A stretch of DNA of 28,707 nt from positions 1 to 28,707 of the IMG/VR virus record IMGVR_UViG_3300044638_002366. One strand, 5' to 3'. This document shows, piece by piece, positions 12,191 through 27,667 of this stretch. The DNA is from a virus. Numbering within the stretch: the stretch's first letter is position 1; every line of letters starts with the position of its first letter. The notes beneath the pieces are model-generated. The model was not told the DNA's origin, ran no database searches, and saw nothing but the letters and a program-made list of their open reading frames with translations. Both the position numbers and the translations under genes were made by a program.

Positions 12191-13409
12191 AAACCTTTTA
12201 GCAGTTTGCTTTATTGCATTTAACTTTTTATTCCTTGTTGCCCCTGCATATGGGGAAGAAGTAACCTCAGAAGTAACTACCATTGTTACCCCTGGTGGCG
12301 ATGATGTTTCTTATCAGATACCACTGACAGTTTCAGTTGTCTATGATGGTGTTACATACGAAAATGTCTATGCAACTACCAACTCAGTAATTACCTTTGG
12401 TAGACCAGATGGAACATATTGGACATATCCAACTACACCATCAGTATCTATCGAGTCTAAAGACTGGTGGGTGCTACCACAGCAGATGCCAGATACTCAC
12501 TTCATCATCAATGTAAGTGAAGGTGGCTTTCAGGTAGATGGTAACTATCGTCCATACGGTACTTTTACTGGCGATACAACTAGTATTATTATTACTGCAC
12601 AGATTCAAACAGATGGAACTGTTGCATATAGTTATGCAGTAGATGGTCCACTAGCAGGTAATGAAAGAACTGGTGCAGTACTTACTGATGGAACTGTCGT
12701 TCCTTTATCAGAAGTAAACATCATTGAGGTTGAAGAGGCACCAGTTCTAGAACCTGAACCAGTTCCTCCAACACCTGAACCTGTTCCAGAACCAGAGCCA
12801 ACTCCAGAGCCTGAGCCAGAACCTCAACCAGAGCCAGCACCTGAACCTGCTCCGCAACCAAGACCTATCCCAATCTTTGAACCACCTGCACCTGAGCCAC
12901 CTGCCGAAGAACCTCCAGCACCAGTAGAGGAACCGCCAGCAGAAGAGCCACCTGCGGATGAACCGCCAGTTCCAGTAGAAGAGCCTCCTACTCCTGTAGA
13001 AGAACCACCTACTGAAGCAGAGGAACCTCCTGTTGAAGCAGAACCTGCACCAGAGGAAGCACCAGAACCTCCAGCAGAACCAGAGGTAGTGCAGGCAGAA
13101 GATGTAGAAGCATCTGAACTACCAGCCGATACTCCAATCGAATTGGAGAACGGTGTAGTTCTTACTGCTGGTGTAGTCGCAGCACTTGAATTGTTTGACA
13201 ACCCAACAGAATTATTAACAGAAATATTTACAAATCCTGCTCAGGTATTAACAGCATTATCTAATATTGGTGCCGATATGTCTGAGGAAGAAAGAAAAGA
13301 ATCAACTGAAACTATCTTGGCAGCAGTGATCGTGGGACAAATCGCAACACAGTCAGCAGTAGCAGCAGCAGCATCCGCAGCCTCAACCACGTATAGGAGA
13401 AAACCTTAA
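12153..13409 (+). CDS. Secreted Pro/Glu-rich protein with N-terminal beta-domain
   Basis: Up to 418 aa. A signal peptide is clear: basic KSRN, hydrophobic LLAVCFIAFNFLFLVAPAYG and a likely cut before EE (about 34-35). The mature part has a beta-domain (about 41-185; VYDGVTYENVYATTNSVITF, then WWVLPQQMP), then a long Pro/Glu repeat stretch (about 195-315) and a helical C-terminus ending AVAAAASAASTTYRRKP. No lipid or sorting motif is seen. The start could be TTG 12153 (GGAAG six bases before it) or GTG 12177; both keep the signal peptide. The Pro/Glu arm could span the thick actinobacterial envelope. It sits just before holin-like and endolysin genes. Function is unknown to me. Confidence 0.7.
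   Translation: MTKSTSSFVRKSRNLLAVCFIAFNFLFLVAPAYGEEVTSEVTTIVTPGGDDVSYQIPLTVSVVYDGVTYENVYATTNSVITFGRPDGTYWTYPTTPSVSIESKDWWVLPQQMPDTHFIINVSEGGFQVDGNYRPYGTFTGDTTSIIITAQIQTDGTVAYSYAVDGPLAGNERTGAVLTDGTVVPLSEVNIIEVEEAPVLEPEPVPPTPEPVPEPEPTPEPEPEPQPEPAPEPAPQPRPIPIFEPPAPEPPAEEPPAPVEEPPAEEPPADEPPVPVEEPPTPVEEPPTEAEEPPVEAEPAPEEAPEPPAEPEVVQAEDVEASELPADTPIELENGVVLTAGVVAALELFDNPTELLTEIFTNPAQVLTALSNIGADMSEEERKESTETILAAVIVGQIATQSAVAAAASAASTTYRRKP
12736..13085 (+). repeat. Degenerate Pro/Glu codon repeats
   Basis: Imperfect repeats of CCAGAGCCTGAACC-type hexamers encode PEPEP, PPAEEPPA and PVEEPPT blocks in the secreted protein. Synonymous changes between copies show the repeat has been kept at the protein level. 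Such tracts change length readily by slippage. Confidence 0.7.
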
Positions 13410-18648: not shown

Positions 18649-19293
18649 ATGATTATCTTTGATTTCTTCTCTGGCACTGGTAGTGCTACTCAAGCATTCA
18701 AAGATGCAGGTCATCAGGTCTATTCATTTGAACTCAATGGAAATTTTGATGCTACAGAACATGTTAATTTACTTGAGTTAACTGCTGAGTATCTCATTGA
18801 GAAGTACGGTCAACCCGACTTTATATGGGCTTCACCGCCTTGTACAGCATTCTCTATTGCATCTGCTAAGCACCATTGGGAAGCAGGACAGAAGATCCCT
18901 GTGCCTAAGACTGAACTAGCAGTAGAGTCTATTGATTTAGTTATTCACACATTAAAATTAATTAAGCAGTTGAACCCACGCTATGGATGGCTCATGGAGA
19001 ACCCTAGAGGTATGCTCCGTAAGTTAAAGATAGTCGCTGGTTTACCACGCAGAACACTTACGTATTGCCAGTACGGCGAAGAATATATGAAGCCTACAGA
19101 TTTATGGGGTGCAGTCCAAGGTTGGACTCCACGCCAGCCATGTAAAGCAGGTATGCCTTGTCATAAATCCTCACCTAGAGGTTCACACAACAAAGGCTTA
19201 CAAGGTATAGCAGACGTAGTAGAACGATCTCGTGTACCCTATGATCTTGGAAAAGAAATATTAGAGGTGATAGATGCAAAGCGAAAAGCCTGA
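18649..19293 (+). CDS. DNA cytosine-5 methyltransferase-like protein
   Basis: 214 aa. Motif I is DFFSGTGSA (5-13), the SAM-binding loop; motif IV is ASPPC (61-65) with the catalytic Cys65; motif VI is MENPRG (116-121) with the Glu that protonates cytosine. The target-recognition part is short (LPRRTLTYCQYGEEYMKPTD), and the protein is far smaller than standalone Dcm enzymes, so recognition may be relaxed or depend on partners. It would methylate phage DNA, perhaps to evade host restriction. No matching restriction enzyme is nearby, although an HNH gene follows at 21054. No ribosome site is obvious before ATG. Confidence 0.75.
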   Translation: MIIFDFFSGTGSATQAFKDAGHQVYSFELNGNFDATEHVNLLELTAEYLIEKYGQPDFIWASPPCTAFSIASAKHHWEAGQKIPVPKTELAVESIDLVIHTLKLIKQLNPRYGWLMENPRGMLRKLKIVAGLPRRTLTYCQYGEEYMKPTDLWGAVQGWTPRQPCKAGMPCHKSSPRGSHNKGLQGIADVVERSRVPYDLGKEILEVIDAKRKA

Positions 19294-20114: not shown

Positions 20115-20458
20115 TGTTAGTTCCTGTTGATGGACATTTCGTCTGCGAAGATAAGTGTGATTTTACTACTTGTGACATCTTTGAATTCTTAGATCATTGT
20201 GGTGTTGAGTTCTCATGGGGCGTCAAGTTAAGCAAGCGTTACTCATTTGATCTGTTTACTTTCCTACATCAATTAAATCGTCTGATAGACGAAGGTGATG
20301 GGGATGCTATCTATGACCACGTTCAAAACGCCACACTCATGATGGTCAATGCTAGCGACGATGAACTCGAGCCGTTCATAGAGGAGATGGTTGTTGCTGC
20401 AGAAATGGACGATGTATTGGAAGGCGTGGAAAAACTACTCAAGGAGAACAATGACTAA
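20114..20458 (+). CDS. Acidic hypothetical protein
   Basis: 114 aa, start overlapping the primase stop (TAATG). Four Cys and His residues in the first 30 residues (HFVCEDKCDFTTCD) may bind metal. The rest is acidic and helical (LFTFLHQLNRLIDEGDGDAI, then DDELEPFIEEMVVAAEMDD). I do not recognise a family. It overlaps the next gene by eight bases. Placement in the replication block suggests a regulatory or accessory role. Confidence 0.7.
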   Translation: MLVPVDGHFVCEDKCDFTTCDIFEFLDHCGVEFSWGVKLSKRYSFDLFTFLHQLNRLIDEGDGDAIYDHVQNATLMMVNASDDELEPFIEEMVVAAEMDDVLEGVEKLLKENND

Positions 20459-20831
20459 CTACACGGATCAGGTAAATGTGTATCGTGAGATAACAAAAAT
20501 AGCACCTCATGAACTCAAAAAAGCAGTGTCTAGCACTGACTTTAGACCACCTCAGAAGTTTGATCTTGATGTCATGAAAACCTTTGAGGAACTAGAAACG
20601 CTCCTGCTTCGCAAGCATAAAGATTACGGTCCAAAGAACATCGCATTAGCGCCAGGGGGTCCAATCAATGGGCTCCGTGTCCGTATGTGGGACAAGATGG
20701 CTCGTATAAATAACCTAGTAGACAACAAGGTAGAAGGTCTCAACGAACCTCTTGAGGATTCATTCGCAGACCTCGCAAACTATGCTATAATAGGACTAAT
20801 GGTACTGAGAGGACAATGGCCAAATGAATAA
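20451..20831 (+). CDS. Nmad1/DUF1599-like nucleotide-associated protein
   Basis: I use ATG 20451, preceded by AAGGAG, giving 126 aa. The core LETLLLRKHKDYGPKNIALA, then GLRVRMWDKMARINNL and EPLEDSFADLANYAIIG, matches what I know as nucleotide modification associated domain 1 (DUF1599), an all-helical domain related in fold to MazG-like nucleotide pyrophosphohydrolases. Acidic residues in the helices would hold metal and a nucleotide. It may adjust the nucleotide pool or support modified DNA, in line with the methyltransferase upstream. Confidence 0.75.
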   Translation: MTNYTDQVNVYREITKIAPHELKKAVSSTDFRPPQKFDLDVMKTFEELETLLLRKHKDYGPKNIALAPGGPINGLRVRMWDKMARINNLVDNKVEGLNEPLEDSFADLANYAIIGLMVLRGQWPNE

Positions 20832-23358: not shown

Positions 23359-23474
23359 AGTGCCACCGCCAACACACTCCCGACAACCATGAGCGTGCCT
23401 ACACTTGTCCACAAGATAATTCCAAGTGAGTCACGCACACTTAGTGTGAAGTAATCGTAATCTTCTTCACTCAT
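23355..23474 (-). CDS. 39-aa single-pass membrane peptide
   Basis: GGAGGT lies about nine bases before ATG 23474. The peptide starts MSEEDYDYFTLSVRDSLGII, followed by a hydrophobic helix (LWTSVGTLMVVGSVLAVAL) to its end. The acidic N-terminus and C-terminal helix suggest a C-terminally anchored membrane protein, N-end inside. It overlaps WhiB by eight bases and the next gene by four. Possible roles: superinfection exclusion or lysis control; no evidence decides. Confidence 0.6.
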   Translation of the reverse strand: MSEEDYDYFTLSVRDSLGIILWTSVGTLMVVGSVLAVAL

Positions 23475-23805
23475 AAGTTCTTACCTCCAAGTCACGCACA
23501 GTTTGCGCTAACGTACTACGCACACTTATCGTTTCTAAGTGTAACGCTTGTTGTATTTCTGCGCGTTCTAGACGATCACGCCCAGCCCAGATACCTGTGA
23601 GGTCATTGTATTGCAAGGAGTATTCATCACACTCAGCGAGTGCATCACACCCCTTGCAAATTGCACGAGCCATCATGGCACTAGGTATGCGTGACCAGCC
23701 TCGACCTTCCGTACCTGATACCTCTTCGGGGAACCATAAGTCAGGGTTGAGTGCGTTAGCACACGAAGCCTCTGCCTTAAAGTGTGGGAATACTTGCGTA
23801 TTCAT
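23467..23805 (-). CDS. whiB: WhiB-family Fe-S transcription regulator
   Basis: 112 aa. The family marks are all here: Cys15, Cys50, Cys53 and Cys59 (CKGC and C at five residues later) for the 4Fe-4S cluster, LWFPEE near the start, and GIWAGRD (71-77), the turn that follows the cluster. WhiB proteins are limited to Actinobacteria and their phages and act with the main sigma factor; mycobacteriophage TM4 WhiB is known to repress host whiB2 and block superinfection. The final 30 residues lack a strong basic AT-hook. It overlaps the genes on both sides. Confidence 0.85.
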   Translation of the reverse strand: MNTQVFPHFKAEASCANALNPDLWFPEEVSGTEGRGWSRIPSAMMARAICKGCDALAECDEYSLQYNDLTGIWAGRDRLERAEIQQALHLETISVRSTLAQTVRDLEVRTYE

Positions 23806-24307: not shown

Positions 24308-24432
24308 GGTGTAGCCCCTAACTTCACGTATGCACAAGGCACACAGTAATAGCGTTCACTTACGTCATGCGAGATAACCATAATCTTCATCTCACATGCG
24401 TAACACTCACGCTCTATGTATTGTTTATCCAC
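24304..24432 (-). CDS. 42-aa zinc-ribbon micro-protein
   Basis: From GTG 24432: MDKQYIERECYACEMKIMVI then SHDVSERYYCVPCAYVKLG. The pairs CYAC (10, 13) and CVPC (30, 33) have the spacing of a zinc ribbon. It overlaps both neighbours (four bases downstream, eight upstream). Unknown function. Confidence 0.6.
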   Translation of the reverse strand: MDKQYIERECYACEMKIMVISHDVSERYYCVPCAYVKLGATP

Positions 24433-24616
24433 GCGTATCACCTACCTCGAGTGGCATTTGACCTGCGAGATCGCGGTACTGTTCAGCACGCATGACTAAC
24501 TCTGCGTGTTGTTCTTTCTTTCCCTCAGACAAGGCGCGTAACGCCTCGCTGAGGAATAGGTCGGCACGCTTACCATAGTAAAACGAGGTAGGCGGTACAG
24601 GCTTATGCTTTTTCAT
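24425..24616 (-). CDS. 63-aa helical hypothetical protein
   Basis: Starts MKKHKPVPPTSFYYGKRADL and continues with a charged amphipathic helix (FLSEALRALSEGKKEQHAEL, then VMRAEQYRDLAGQ). It overlaps the upstream gene by 14 bases and the downstream one by eight. No motif for enzyme activity. The helix might pack as a dimer or bind a partner protein. Function unknown. Confidence 0.6.
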   Translation of the reverse strand: MKKHKPVPPTSFYYGKRADLFLSEALRALSEGKKEQHAELVMRAEQYRDLAGQMPLEVGDTRG

Positions 24617-24794
24617 GCGCGTTCTCCGTTACGTCATTGTACACGGCGACGCCGTGGTCTATGAGGAATTGCGCCATTACCCGAGCAACCTCAGCACACG
24701 GCTTTTGTCGCATTGGATACGGGTCACCTGCCTCGGGTGAGTAAGTTAAACCACTCGAGATGAGTGCGTCCATTATCTGTGATGTGTGTATCAC
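24603..24794 (-). CDS. 63-aa hypothetical protein
   Basis: I choose GTG 24794, which overlaps the amidotransferase stop (GTGA), over the GTG nine bases earlier. The product includes TSQIMDALISSGLTYSPEAG, a PYPMRQKPCAEVARVMAQFL helix and HGVAVYNDVTENAHEKA. It looks like a small helical domain. Not recognised. Coupling to the amidotransferase gene makes a link to the modification system possible. Confidence 0.6.
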   Translation of the reverse strand: MIHTSQIMDALISSGLTYSPEAGDPYPMRQKPCAEVARVMAQFLIDHGVAVYNDVTENAHEKA

Positions 24795-25603
24795 CAGCCC
24801 CACGCTCCTTCGCTTCTTGTTGTTGCGTCATAGTATGCACGTCCGTGATAGCACAGACAGTCTGTTTTATACATGTAACACTCATAGCAACTGCCACACG
24901 TAGAACAACTTGCGTCTACAAGTTCGTCTGCCGTGGTTACTGTTTGGCAGATGTCACACGTAATTTCCTCGTCATACCCTGTTGCGTATAATCCGAAGTC
25001 AAGTGGTTGCACACTTGTCCATGTGCTACGTGCAGGTGTGAGATAACATGAGTCGTTAGACCACCACACACCTGTTTCATCATGCTTACCCTTCTCCTCG
25101 TGGAGCAAGTACATCTGATGCTCGGCACGCGGATCGACTGTAAGCACACACACCTTAGAACCTGATGTGAAGTCCTCGAGTACGTTCCACACTTGCTCGT
25201 TATCTAACGCAGTCACACCGCCTATCGCAGGAAGTAAATCTTCTGCGAAGATACGTGTGTCGCTACGTGTATCACCCTTCGGTTCTACGATAGACAGTAT
25301 CCCGTTGTGTGCAAGATACGTCTGAGAGTTACACACTTGGAACGGGTGGCAGTTCTCCACAGTTGTCGTGCCATGTGTGGCAAATCGTGCGTGCCATAGT
25401 GCGTATCCCTCGGGATACTTGCCACGCATTTCGAGGAAGCGGTTGATAGATGTGTCCGCGTTCATGGTACGTTCAGCGTGGATACGCTTCTCGCTTGGTA
25501 TAACTATCGCAAACCCAAATCCGTGTGGGTTATTGAGGGCACTTGCTTCTAACTTCTCACGTGACGGGATCACGTTAGGTGGTACTACGCATAACATACA
25601 CAT
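24791..25603 (-). CDS. Class II glutamine amidotransferase
   Basis: 270 aa when read from ATG 25603, which puts Cys2 at the processed N-terminus, as the Ntn-type enzymes of this family require (MCMLCVV). Supporting motifs: NNPHGFGF (24-31), WHARFATHGT (70-79), NCHPF (84-88), AHNGIL (98-103) and SDTR (114-117). It should hydrolyse glutamine to release ammonia. The last third holds a Cys-rich module (CDIC, then CSTCGSCYECY), probably zinc-binding, unusual for the family. The upstream gene is an amidoligase, a likely ammonia acceptor. ATG 25612 or 25618 would add residues and bury Cys2, so I reject them. Confidence 0.85.
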   Translation of the reverse strand: MCMLCVVPPNVIPSREKLEASALNNPHGFGFAIVIPSEKRIHAERTMNADTSINRFLEMRGKYPEGYALWHARFATHGTTTVENCHPFQVCNSQTYLAHNGILSIVEPKGDTRSDTRIFAEDLLPAIGGVTALDNEQVWNVLEDFTSGSKVCVLTVDPRAEHQMYLLHEEKGKHDETGVWWSNDSCYLTPARSTWTSVQPLDFGLYATGYDEEITCDICQTVTTADELVDASCSTCGSCYECYMYKTDCLCYHGRAYYDATTRSEGAWGW

Positions 25604-25604
25604 C

Positions 25605-27134
25605 TTACTCATCTCCATTATCTTCAGGTGCACTATCACGTGAGAAAGACTCGTTCATGATGAGTGCTAGGTTTGGGTATTGCTCTTGGTTTTCTGCTAC
25701 GTAACGTGTGAATTGCAACCACGATAACGCATTGTTCTTGCCTGTGACTTTCAGGTTGCGTGTGTATTCGACCGCGCCATGAACAAACTCAAGCGCAGAT
25801 AACACACGTTCCTTGCGTAGTGACCCCTTAAACACACGCACCTCGAGAGTAGCGTCGTTCTCTGTGTTAATCGCGGAGTAACGTCCGTTTTCCTGCGTGC
25901 CATGCTTTACCTTAGACACGAGTTTATTCTTGTCCTGAAAGGACGCGTAGTTATTGTTTGAGCGTCCTGCGATACGCTCAACCATGCGTTGATTATCGTA
26001 AATGAGTTTCATGAAACGCAACTCGTGACCTTGTGTTTTCACAATGTCCGTGAACATGCCGTTCTTGACGTGAAAGGCTCTACGACTTACGTGAACGTGT
26101 AAGCCACACGTTCTTGTATTCCATGAGCGCATACCTGCACGCTGTAATTTATCTAACGTATCCCATGGGAACGACGTTTGATACATGCTGAGCGTGTGTG
26201 GGTGTGTGACTATCTCGAAGCCGTCACTCAGCGAGCCGTCCTCTTTCAGGTAGGCTCGATCCCCGAGTTGCGTGTGTGCTAACTCTGCACCCTCGCTTCG
26301 TGTGGTGTTGCGTGCTTCGACTTCTAACTCGAAGCCCATGTGGAACTTATCGGTTCCGAAGAAGTGCGTCTGTGGACGATACGAGTAACTGTGTATGTAT
26401 GACGAATAACCTTCGTCATTGTCGTACGCGGAACAGTCGTGTTCAGACCAGTAGGTTTCTCCACAGTCGTCACACTCGTACACGTTGTTGTCGTAGCATG
26501 GGTCACAGTAGAGTTCATCACAGTACCAGCGTGCGCTATCTCGGTGTTCGTACTCTGAACAAGCCTCACAGATAATCCACGCGTCACGTCCTCCGTTCTC
26601 CTCGAACCATGCGTCAAGGCAACCATTACACATCTCCTCTCCTTGTATCGTGATGAAGTCACGCTGACCGCCTGTGTGGCGCCAGTTGCAACTCCAACGT
26701 ACTGCACGTGTACTTGCATAGTGCTTTTCACACACCTCGCAAGCCTTACAGCATTGAGCGTGTGCCCACACATCATCACCTAAATCGCTGAGTGTGAGTT
26801 GCTTCTCGTATGCTGGGGTAGTTGGGTTATCTACGAATACGTTACCGCACCCATAGCACCTCTCCTCTTGGTACAGTTCGGGAAACTGCACAACAGGGTC
26901 GAAGTGAGTGTTTTCGTATAGGAACACACGCACAGCCTCGGGGTCATTAAAGACACTCATGTCGGTTGTGCGATAGCGTATGTCTAACGCCCTACCTAGA
27001 CAGTCAATACATTTAGGTTCTTGCTCATGTGTGAGCAGTGAGTGTATGAATAGGTGGGCAGGACGTGAACAGTTAGTACACGCACCGTTTTCCACGTATG
27101 CGAACACAGTATCGAGTATCACATCATGCGACAT
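25605..27134 (-). CDS. Amidoligase-fold enzyme with zinc-ribbon array
   Basis: 509 aa from ATG 27134 (GAGG five bases before). Residues 1-225 contain about nine Cys pairs (19/22, 42/45, 93/96, 132/135, 169/172, 189/192, 205/210/213, 221/224), forming a zinc array. Residues 258-500 read as an Amidoligase_2-type domain: GFELEVE (267-273), EDGSL (298-302), FEIVTHPHT (306-314), CGLHVHVS (343-350) and TLEVRVFKGSL (429-439), the acidic and His residues expected to bind ATP and metal in the glutamine-synthetase-like fold. It would join an amino group or ammonia to a carboxylate. Its direct downstream neighbour is a class II amidotransferase. Substrate unknown; the zinc array may bind it. Family call is from memory. 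Confidence 0.75.
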   Translation of the reverse strand: MSHDVILDTVFAYVENGACTNCSRPAHLFIHSLLTHEQEPKCIDCLGRALDIRYRTTDMSVFNDPEAVRVFLYENTHFDPVVQFPELYQEERCYGCGNVFVDNPTTPAYEKQLTLSDLGDDVWAHAQCCKACEVCEKHYASTRAVRWSCNWRHTGGQRDFITIQGEEMCNGCLDAWFEENGGRDAWIICEACSEYEHRDSARWYCDELYCDPCYDNNVYECDDCGETYWSEHDCSAYDNDEGYSSYIHSYSYRPQTHFFGTDKFHMGFELEVEARNTTRSEGAELAHTQLGDRAYLKEDGSLSDGFEIVTHPHTLSMYQTSFPWDTLDKLQRAGMRSWNTRTCGLHVHVSRRAFHVKNGMFTDIVKTQGHELRFMKLIYDNQRMVERIAGRSNNNYASFQDKNKLVSKVKHGTQENGRYSAINTENDATLEVRVFKGSLRKERVLSALEFVHGAVEYTRNLKVTGKNNALSWLQFTRYVAENQEQYPNLALIMNESFSRDSAPEDNGDE

Positions 27135-27300: not shown

Positions 27301-27667
27301 CTCGTCTTACCTTTCTTGCTCGTGTGAGATGAAGAAACCTCACCCTGCAACGCGGAAACCATTTTAACGCGAAGCAAGATGAGGTTTTCTCATAAGGGAT
27401 TTTTTCCCTTGTCGTAATCTTATCATGGCTCTGACCAGCAGTTTTACCGATCAAAGATTAAACTCAATACGGGAAGTCGTAGGTGCGTAAGTGCGTGCAC
27501 GTAACGACGATGTATGTACCGCGCGTGTGTGGGAAAACGCGTCCGACATGTCCGTTTCGTCCGTTCTGTCCGTTGTGCCCGTTGCGTCCGTTGCGTCCGT
27601 TGCGTCCGACATGTCCGAATTGTGCGCCCGAGCGTGGCGCGCGTGTGCGTGCGCGCACCCGTAAGAG
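27301..27667. other. Divergent intergenic region with repeats and hairpins
   Basis: 367 bases without a supported gene, between a leftward operon and a rightward gene. Elements: AAACCTCA (27335-27342) and TGAGGTTT (27380-27387) as an inverted repeat; AAGGGA-TTTTT-TCCCTT (27394-27410); a minus-strand extended -10 candidate TGA-TAAGAT (27417-27425); eight 9-bp repeats (27545-27616); a 22-bp alternating purine-pyrimidine tract (27637-27658). Frames through the repeats give low-complexity peptides without ribosome sites. It may hold promoters, operators or a replication origin. Confidence 0.5.
27545..27616 (+). repeat. Eight tandem 9-bp repeats, palindromic units at both ends
   Basis: Units in order: GACATGTCC, GTTTCGTCC, GTTCTGTCC, GTTGTGCCC, three GTTGCGTCC, GACATGTCC. 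The first and last units are identical and contain the palindrome GACATGTC. Exact 9-base spacing is kept throughout. Such arrays are typical of iterons or cooperative operator sites; the nine-base period is also compatible with coding, but no good gene covers it. Confidence 0.8.

Follow-up and report, generated by a model that had tools for sequence, protein, structure and literature searches.

The 28,707-base window analyzed here, which is the whole of IMG/VR record IMGVR_UViG_3300044638_002366, encodes an amidoligase on its minus strand and, directly after it, a class II glutaminase. We propose that the two proteins are probably the subunits of a glutamine-dependent enzyme that amidates a carboxylate. 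GS-fold ligases activate carboxylates as acyl-phosphates, and class II glutaminases supply ammonia. Because of this family chemistry and the coupling of the two genes, glutamine-dependent amidation is the best reading. A sequence-only reading had placed such a pair at 24791–27134, and these coordinates are right. Both proteins match their Pfam families above the curated cut-offs, the predicted ligase fold is GS-like, and the N-terminal Cys2 of the glutaminase is in place. Amidoligase–amidotransferase pairs of phages were recorded over ten years ago. One clade of these pairs forms a two-gene unit that is almost obligate and widely mobile and that keeps a predicted zinc core. Through its small partner proteins described below and through the pair of phage Marvin, whose host is M. 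smegmatis, the substrate becomes open to experimental test. Should it prove to be the envelope or a protein, the pair would represent a new way in which mobile elements mark or guard the host cell.

Table 1 Features of the amidoligase–glutaminase region in the 28,707-base window.
Feature	Position	Strand	Basis
Amidoligase gene, 509 aa: predicted zinc-binding N-terminal region and GS-fold amidoligase domain	25605..27134	-	Pfam, AF2 model, dN/dS
Predicted zinc region, ligase residues ~19-234, with five putative zinc sites	26430..27080	-	Cys/His conservation
Catalytic domain with predicted GS fold, ligase residues ~260-498	25640..26355	-	Residue conservation, VIA-align fold
Class II glutaminase/Ntn-amidotransferase gene, 270 aa, Cys2, eight-Cys tail (residues 216-251)	24791..25603	-	Pfam, conservation, fold
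66-aa ORF between glutaminase and sp63	24603..24803	-	4 loci in its cluster
63-aa conserved partner ORF (sp63), soluble	24425..24616	-	Found with glutaminase in viral loci
WhiB-like regulator, downstream of the pair, actinophage marker	23467..23805	-	Pfam Whib E 2.9e-10

The pair is carried on an actinophage-like contig of 28.7 kb. The contig also encodes a major head protein, a tail fiber, a CHAP/NlpC endolysin, a Cas4-like exonuclease, a DnaB helicase, a DNA primase, a sigma factor, a metallophosphoesterase, and a WhiB regulator. A WhiB-like gene lies downstream of the pair on the same strand in 46 loci. WhiB is used to mark actinophages in freshwater metagenomes (PMC6802176), which makes an actinobacterial host likely. 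The record is probably a partial genome, since contigs of its relatives extend to 39–43 kb.

The ligase ORF opens at ATG 27134. An amidoligase domain had been claimed for it and was borne out by a Pfam Amidoligase_2 (PF12224) match (E 7.8e-6; 26.4 bits against a curated cut-off of 22), which was also obtained for all 44 aligned phage homologs. In the AlphaFold2 model based on the phage alignment (pLDDT 82), residues 260–509 were superposed by VIA-align on Salmonella NP459575 (Z 12.4 over 222 residues), the γ-glutamylcysteine ligase YbdK (Z 12.3), a plant glutamate–cysteine ligase (Z 11.4), and glutamine synthetases (Z about 11); the yardstick of this tool for a merely common fold arrangement is Z 7–8. 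E269, E271, D299, S301, E307, H346, R391, N423, E431, and R433 are conserved in all 95 homologs, which come from phages, Clostridia, Actinobacteria, and Ignavibacteria, and H348 in 94, giving the catalytic motifs E269xE271, H346xH348, and E431xR433. The predicted fold is of GS type, and the acidic (E-x-E) and Arg residues of a GS-type active site are conserved. A sequence search of solved structures left the catalytic domain unmatched; its hits were to zinc fingers and cytochromes and were all weak (E ≥ 0.09). Compared with the nearest relative (L002), dN/dS is about 0.26 for the ligase and 0.14 for the glutaminase. Judged from these sequence comparisons, both genes are under purifying selection, which is the pattern of working enzymes. 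By family and modeled fold, the ligase is probably an ATP-dependent amide-forming enzyme.

About nine Cys pairs had been noticed before the ligase domain. There are exactly nine CxxC motifs, compared with a mean of 0.9 and a maximum of 5 in 5000 shuffled sequences. Eighteen Cys residues of the N-terminal region are kept in 86–100% of the 49 phage-type homologs, and the other three (Cys129, Cys149, and Cys205) in 2–4%; H125 is invariant in these proteins and H232 nearly so. The conserved order of Cys and His fits five four-ligand zinc sites, of which two are outer (C19/C22/C42/C45 and C93/C96/H125/C128) and three are inner (C132/C135/C169/C172, C189/C192/C210/C213, and C221/C224/H232/C234). At least 90 of the 95 homologs, bacterial ones included, retain the inner sites between C132 and C234, with H232 kept less often. 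The two outer sites and the eight-Cys tail of the glutaminase occur in about half of the 95, mostly phage-type proteins. Conservation across the 95 homologs thus points to the three predicted sites beside the catalytic domain as a core trait of the clade from phages to Clostridia, and to the outer sites and the glutaminase tail as a lineage extension found mainly in the phage/actinobacterial branch. LIM domains have the spacing C-x2-C-x(16-23)-H-x2-C-x2-C-x2-C-x(16-21)-C-x2-C. The series C93-C96-H125-C128-C132-C135-C169-C172 has a LIM-like ligand order with longer spacings, and all LIM matches were insignificant (E 0.09 in the PDB; Pfam LIM in 2 of 44 homologs, best E 0.044).

The glutaminase ORF has two in-frame ATGs (25612 and 25603). 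ATG 25603 yields MCMLC..., with Cys as residue 2, and is preceded by GGAG 9 nt upstream; the homolog alignments begin here, in agreement with the annotated start of Marvin gp106. Cys2 would therefore be N-terminal after removal of Met, as the sequence-only reading had assumed, and it is present in 94 of the 95 homologs, the remaining one having a gap. The motifs HARFATHG and AHNG are likewise present, in line with the ARFATHG and AHNG named there as further marks of glutamine amidotransferases, and Pfam matches were obtained to GATase_4 (PF13230; E 2.3e-6, above the cut-off) and GATase_6 (E 2.2e-5). R73, G78, H86, N100, and G101 are conserved in 95/95 homologs, and D115 is invariant in 48 phage-type proteins (72/95 in a wider, less certain alignment). 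The glutamine-pocket residues R73, N100–G101, and D115 are present, and the predicted catalytic residues of both enzymes are intact. The Cys-rich tail, also claimed earlier, comprises eight Cys residues in the pattern C-x2-C-x13-C-x2-C-x2-C-x2-C-x6-C-x-C. It is poorly modeled by AlphaFold2, where the whole protein reaches pLDDT 75.

The tight linkage of the two genes extends well beyond the window. The glutaminase starts at 25603 and the ligase stops at 25605. Bacterial genomes searched with only the ligase profile gave 51 loci (L065–L115), three in Actinobacteria, two in Ignavibacteria, and most of the others in gut and rumen Clostridia. The glutaminase adjoins the ligase in 45 of them. Two of the partnerless loci (L093 and L114) end before a partner could appear, two (L113 and L115) have broken or partial ligases, and L086 has an apparent transposase directly 3′ of the ligase, as read from the sequence; L111 has no such explanation. 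In most bacterial loci measured, the glutaminase starts −12 to +3 nt from the ligase stop, which suggests translational coupling. Among viral contigs, 415 stretches encode relatives. Eighty were kept, and all but one of these have the glutaminase, the exception being cut off at a contig end, so that the pairing was found in every uncut viral locus. Pairwise distances of the ligases and glutaminases correlate with r = 0.94, a value raised by common descent and linkage. From phages to Clostridia, the two genes are nearly inseparable.

The pair is carried by phages and by bacterial mobile elements. A gene for a relaxase, tyrosine integrase, or serine recombinase lies within about 6 kb in at least 30 of the 51 bacterial loci, a lower bound since many loci end early. 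A plasmid search gave six records, all distant. In one mycobacterial plasmid record, the adjacent partner is annotated as 'glucosamine 6-phosphate synthetase'; in another, the match is close to the record end and no partner gene is listed. A DNA-level search with an actinobacterial copy found no plasmids. An apparent in-frame ligase–glutaminase fusion (L041:1973-4026) was rejected as evidence for a natural fusion: it lacks the first residues of the glutaminase, Cys2 among them, and its zinc part is in another frame. We regard it as a defective copy or an assembly error.

The closest described system is the pair of mycobacteriophage Marvin (cluster S). Its gp105 and gp106 are an adjacent ligase and glutaminase, with the Cys2 start and the same eight-Cys tail in the latter, and the catalytic domains align with those of the window (hhalign 1.6e-35 for the ligase and 1.2e-39 for the glutaminase). 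CxxC pairs also precede the Marvin ligase domain, but its zinc region is shorter, with four CxxC motifs before the catalytic domain, and the ligases are 33% identical. By adjacency, homology of both catalytic domains, and Cys pairs beside the ligase domain, the window pair is of the Marvin type. Other Mycobacterium phage records also match the pair. The bacterial copies from Clostridia, Actinobacteria, and Ignavibacteria share the gene order, the three predicted inner zinc sites, and the catalytic residues, whereas in most of them the outer pair of sites and the tail of the glutaminase are missing. In the Methylophilales phages MEP401 and MEP402, the amidoligase also adjoins a GATase (PMC10580990), but the ligase has few Cys pairs and the glutaminase tail has none. 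The pair is listed among the auxiliary metabolic genes of OM43 phages (PMC10580990), and PHROGs already holds both protein families without an assigned function. Our search for published biochemistry on any family member found none.

We infer the following route for the window pair. The GS-fold subunit would use ATP, with metal ions on the E-x-E glutamates, to convert a substrate carboxylate to an acyl-phosphate. In the Ntn-type subunit, the N-terminal Cys would serve as the nucleophile that frees ammonia from glutamine; transfer of this ammonia to the ligase would yield a primary amide. The zinc modules may dock the two subunits, a macromolecular substrate, or both.

The nearest competitor to this route, rather unlikely yet a serious rival, is a pair that works like EgtA and EgtC of ergothioneine synthesis. 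EgtA is a GS-superfamily γ-glutamyl ligase, and EgtC is a hydrolase with the class II GATase fold; the likeness to the window pair is at the fold level. The ligase would then add glutamate via its γ-carboxyl or couple an amine to a carboxylate of the substrate. Instead of supplying ammonia, the Ntn protein would trim or remove a γ-glutamyl group. The nearest solved folds of the ligase include YbdK and the plant glutamate–cysteine ligase. Two solved folds are about equally close to the glutaminase, that of the GlmS glutaminase (Z 13.6) and that of the γ-glutamyl hydrolase EgtC (Z 13.5); PurF glutaminase was also matched. The best Pfam match of the window glutaminase is the broad GATase_4 and not a specific glutamine amidotransferase family, and sequence alone does not separate a glutaminase from an EgtC-like hydrolase. 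The best NCBIfam matches, though weak, are GlmS and PurF, which argues against an EgtC-like function. The glutamine-holding residues of GlmS and PurF (C2, R73, H86, N100, and G101) are also kept, but this pocket is common to EgtC-like enzymes. No other ergothioneine genes were recognized in the window, and we do not claim membership in that pathway. Clostridium prophages are reported to carry a logically similar make-and-remove pair of an amidoligase and a γ-glutamyl cyclotransferase gene (PMC11318856).

Small proteins accompany the pair in freshwater phages and in clostridial elements. In the freshwater phages it is followed by sp63, which has the conserved motif VPPTxxYxGxRAxLFL. When sp63 was searched alone, 66 viral loci were found, with the glutaminase upstream in all 66; this association is linkage within one clade of related phages and not independent evidence. 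Among PADLOC profiles, sp63 gave a weak match to GajA (E 0.008). The 66-aa ORF of the window was found in few relatives. In at least 10 clostridial loci (L085, L087, L092, L096, L097, L099, L102, L103, L104, and L106), an ORF of about 50 aa with one hydrophobic segment is inserted between the ligase and the glutaminase. This ORF, seen in rumen and gut elements, is fast-evolving and has a charged C-terminus, often with Arg-Arg. Different small hydrophobic ORFs occupy this place in L073 and L078.

Two Ignavibacteria metagenome-assembled genomes (L068:5677-10410 and L076:5677-11511) place the pair between a recombinase side and differing defense genes, namely QatB, QatC, and QatD in one and TIR with a short Argonaute in the other. 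This region is possibly an integrating, defense-carrying element. The two loci have the same recombinase/HerA-like left flank with swapped defense cargo. Neither the ligase nor the glutaminase matches PADLOC profiles of known anti-phage defense systems.

As to the target of amidation, our least bad guess, offered tentatively, is a molecule of the envelope or cell surface that, once modified, would shut out competing phages or elements. The guess is made because phages, mobilizable elements, and defense islands would all gain from exclusion, and the phage and defense contexts suggest an envelope role. Host polymerase and virion proteins, named as further targets in the sequence-only reading, gained no support here. 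Wall peptides as the target are a published guess, and the envelope/superinfection idea for related phages is a prediction only (PMC5498523, PMC10580990, PMC11318856). We recognized no peptidoglycan-synthesis partner gene near the pair. A broader and more speculative possibility, which we consider unlikely, is a conflict module common to phages, mobilizable elements, and defense islands. Zinc-guided amidation or γ-glutamylation of a specific protein or envelope target would then exclude competing mobile elements, with the 63-aa actinophage protein or the ~50-aa clostridial membrane peptide as a substrate or adaptor.

The envelope idea rests partly on the multi-gene cassette of LUZ24, UFV-P2, and phiEco32-type phages, in which stem peptides would be rebuilt to block superinfection, and a cassette of this kind is an improbable explanation here. 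Such wall modification has been published for related phage gene sets (PMC5498523, PMC10580990), and the cassettes share Amidoligase_2 and a class II GATase with the window. In UFV-P2, genes for an amidoligase, a GATase, an ATP-grasp protein, a COOH-NH2 ligase, and AIG2 occur together, and the UFV-P2 amidoligase is related to the window ligase at the fold level (hhalign probability 89%). However, the UFV-P2 ligase lacks the zinc array, and the extra ligases and AIG2 of these cassettes were not found in the relatives tested. The COOH-NH2 ligase was not found in three full-length-sized relatives, with the UFV-P2 control detected, and the GGACT cyclotransferase was not found in the window, itself partial, or in ten relatives, with the controls detected. 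We rejected the LUZ24-type cassette on the absence of these two companions from the relatives; a two-gene wall-amidating function outside it may exist.

Amidation of a carboxylated DNA base is highly improbable: the window does encode a DUF1599/Nmad1 nucleotide-modification-associated domain and a C5 cytosine methylase, and a DUF1599-type ORF recurs in 43 loci, but the pair is not adjacent to these genes, neither was seen in the bacterial mobile elements with the pair, and we rejected base hypermodification since no thymidylate-synthase-type hydroxymethylase was found in the window or ten relatives (11 records), with the controls detected. The DUF1599/Nmad1 protein (20391–20831; 43 relatives, by position) and the C5-methylase-like protein (18649–19293) may modify DNA or nucleotides of this phage independently of the pair.

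PMC10580990 cites two papers, Iyer et al. 2009 and that on Marvin, in which the idea of an amidoligase–amidotransferase couple is already in print. As far as checked, the following features appear to be new: the freshwater actinophage clade with its long predicted zinc array and 63-aa partner, the near-inseparability of the two genes from phages to Clostridia, and the small clostridial membrane peptide; some of them may be described in these two papers.

Promoter and terminator scans gave no more matches than shuffled sequence. At 27539–27608, a 9-base unit (GTCCGTTGC) forms a degenerate tandem array of about 6.6 copies. This array lies upstream of the operon of the pair, in a divergent intergenic region, and could be a regulatory or replication site. 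A second repeat region (12740–13043), with units of 18–51 bases, lies inside a 418-aa ORF and probably encodes the low-complexity linker of a structural protein.
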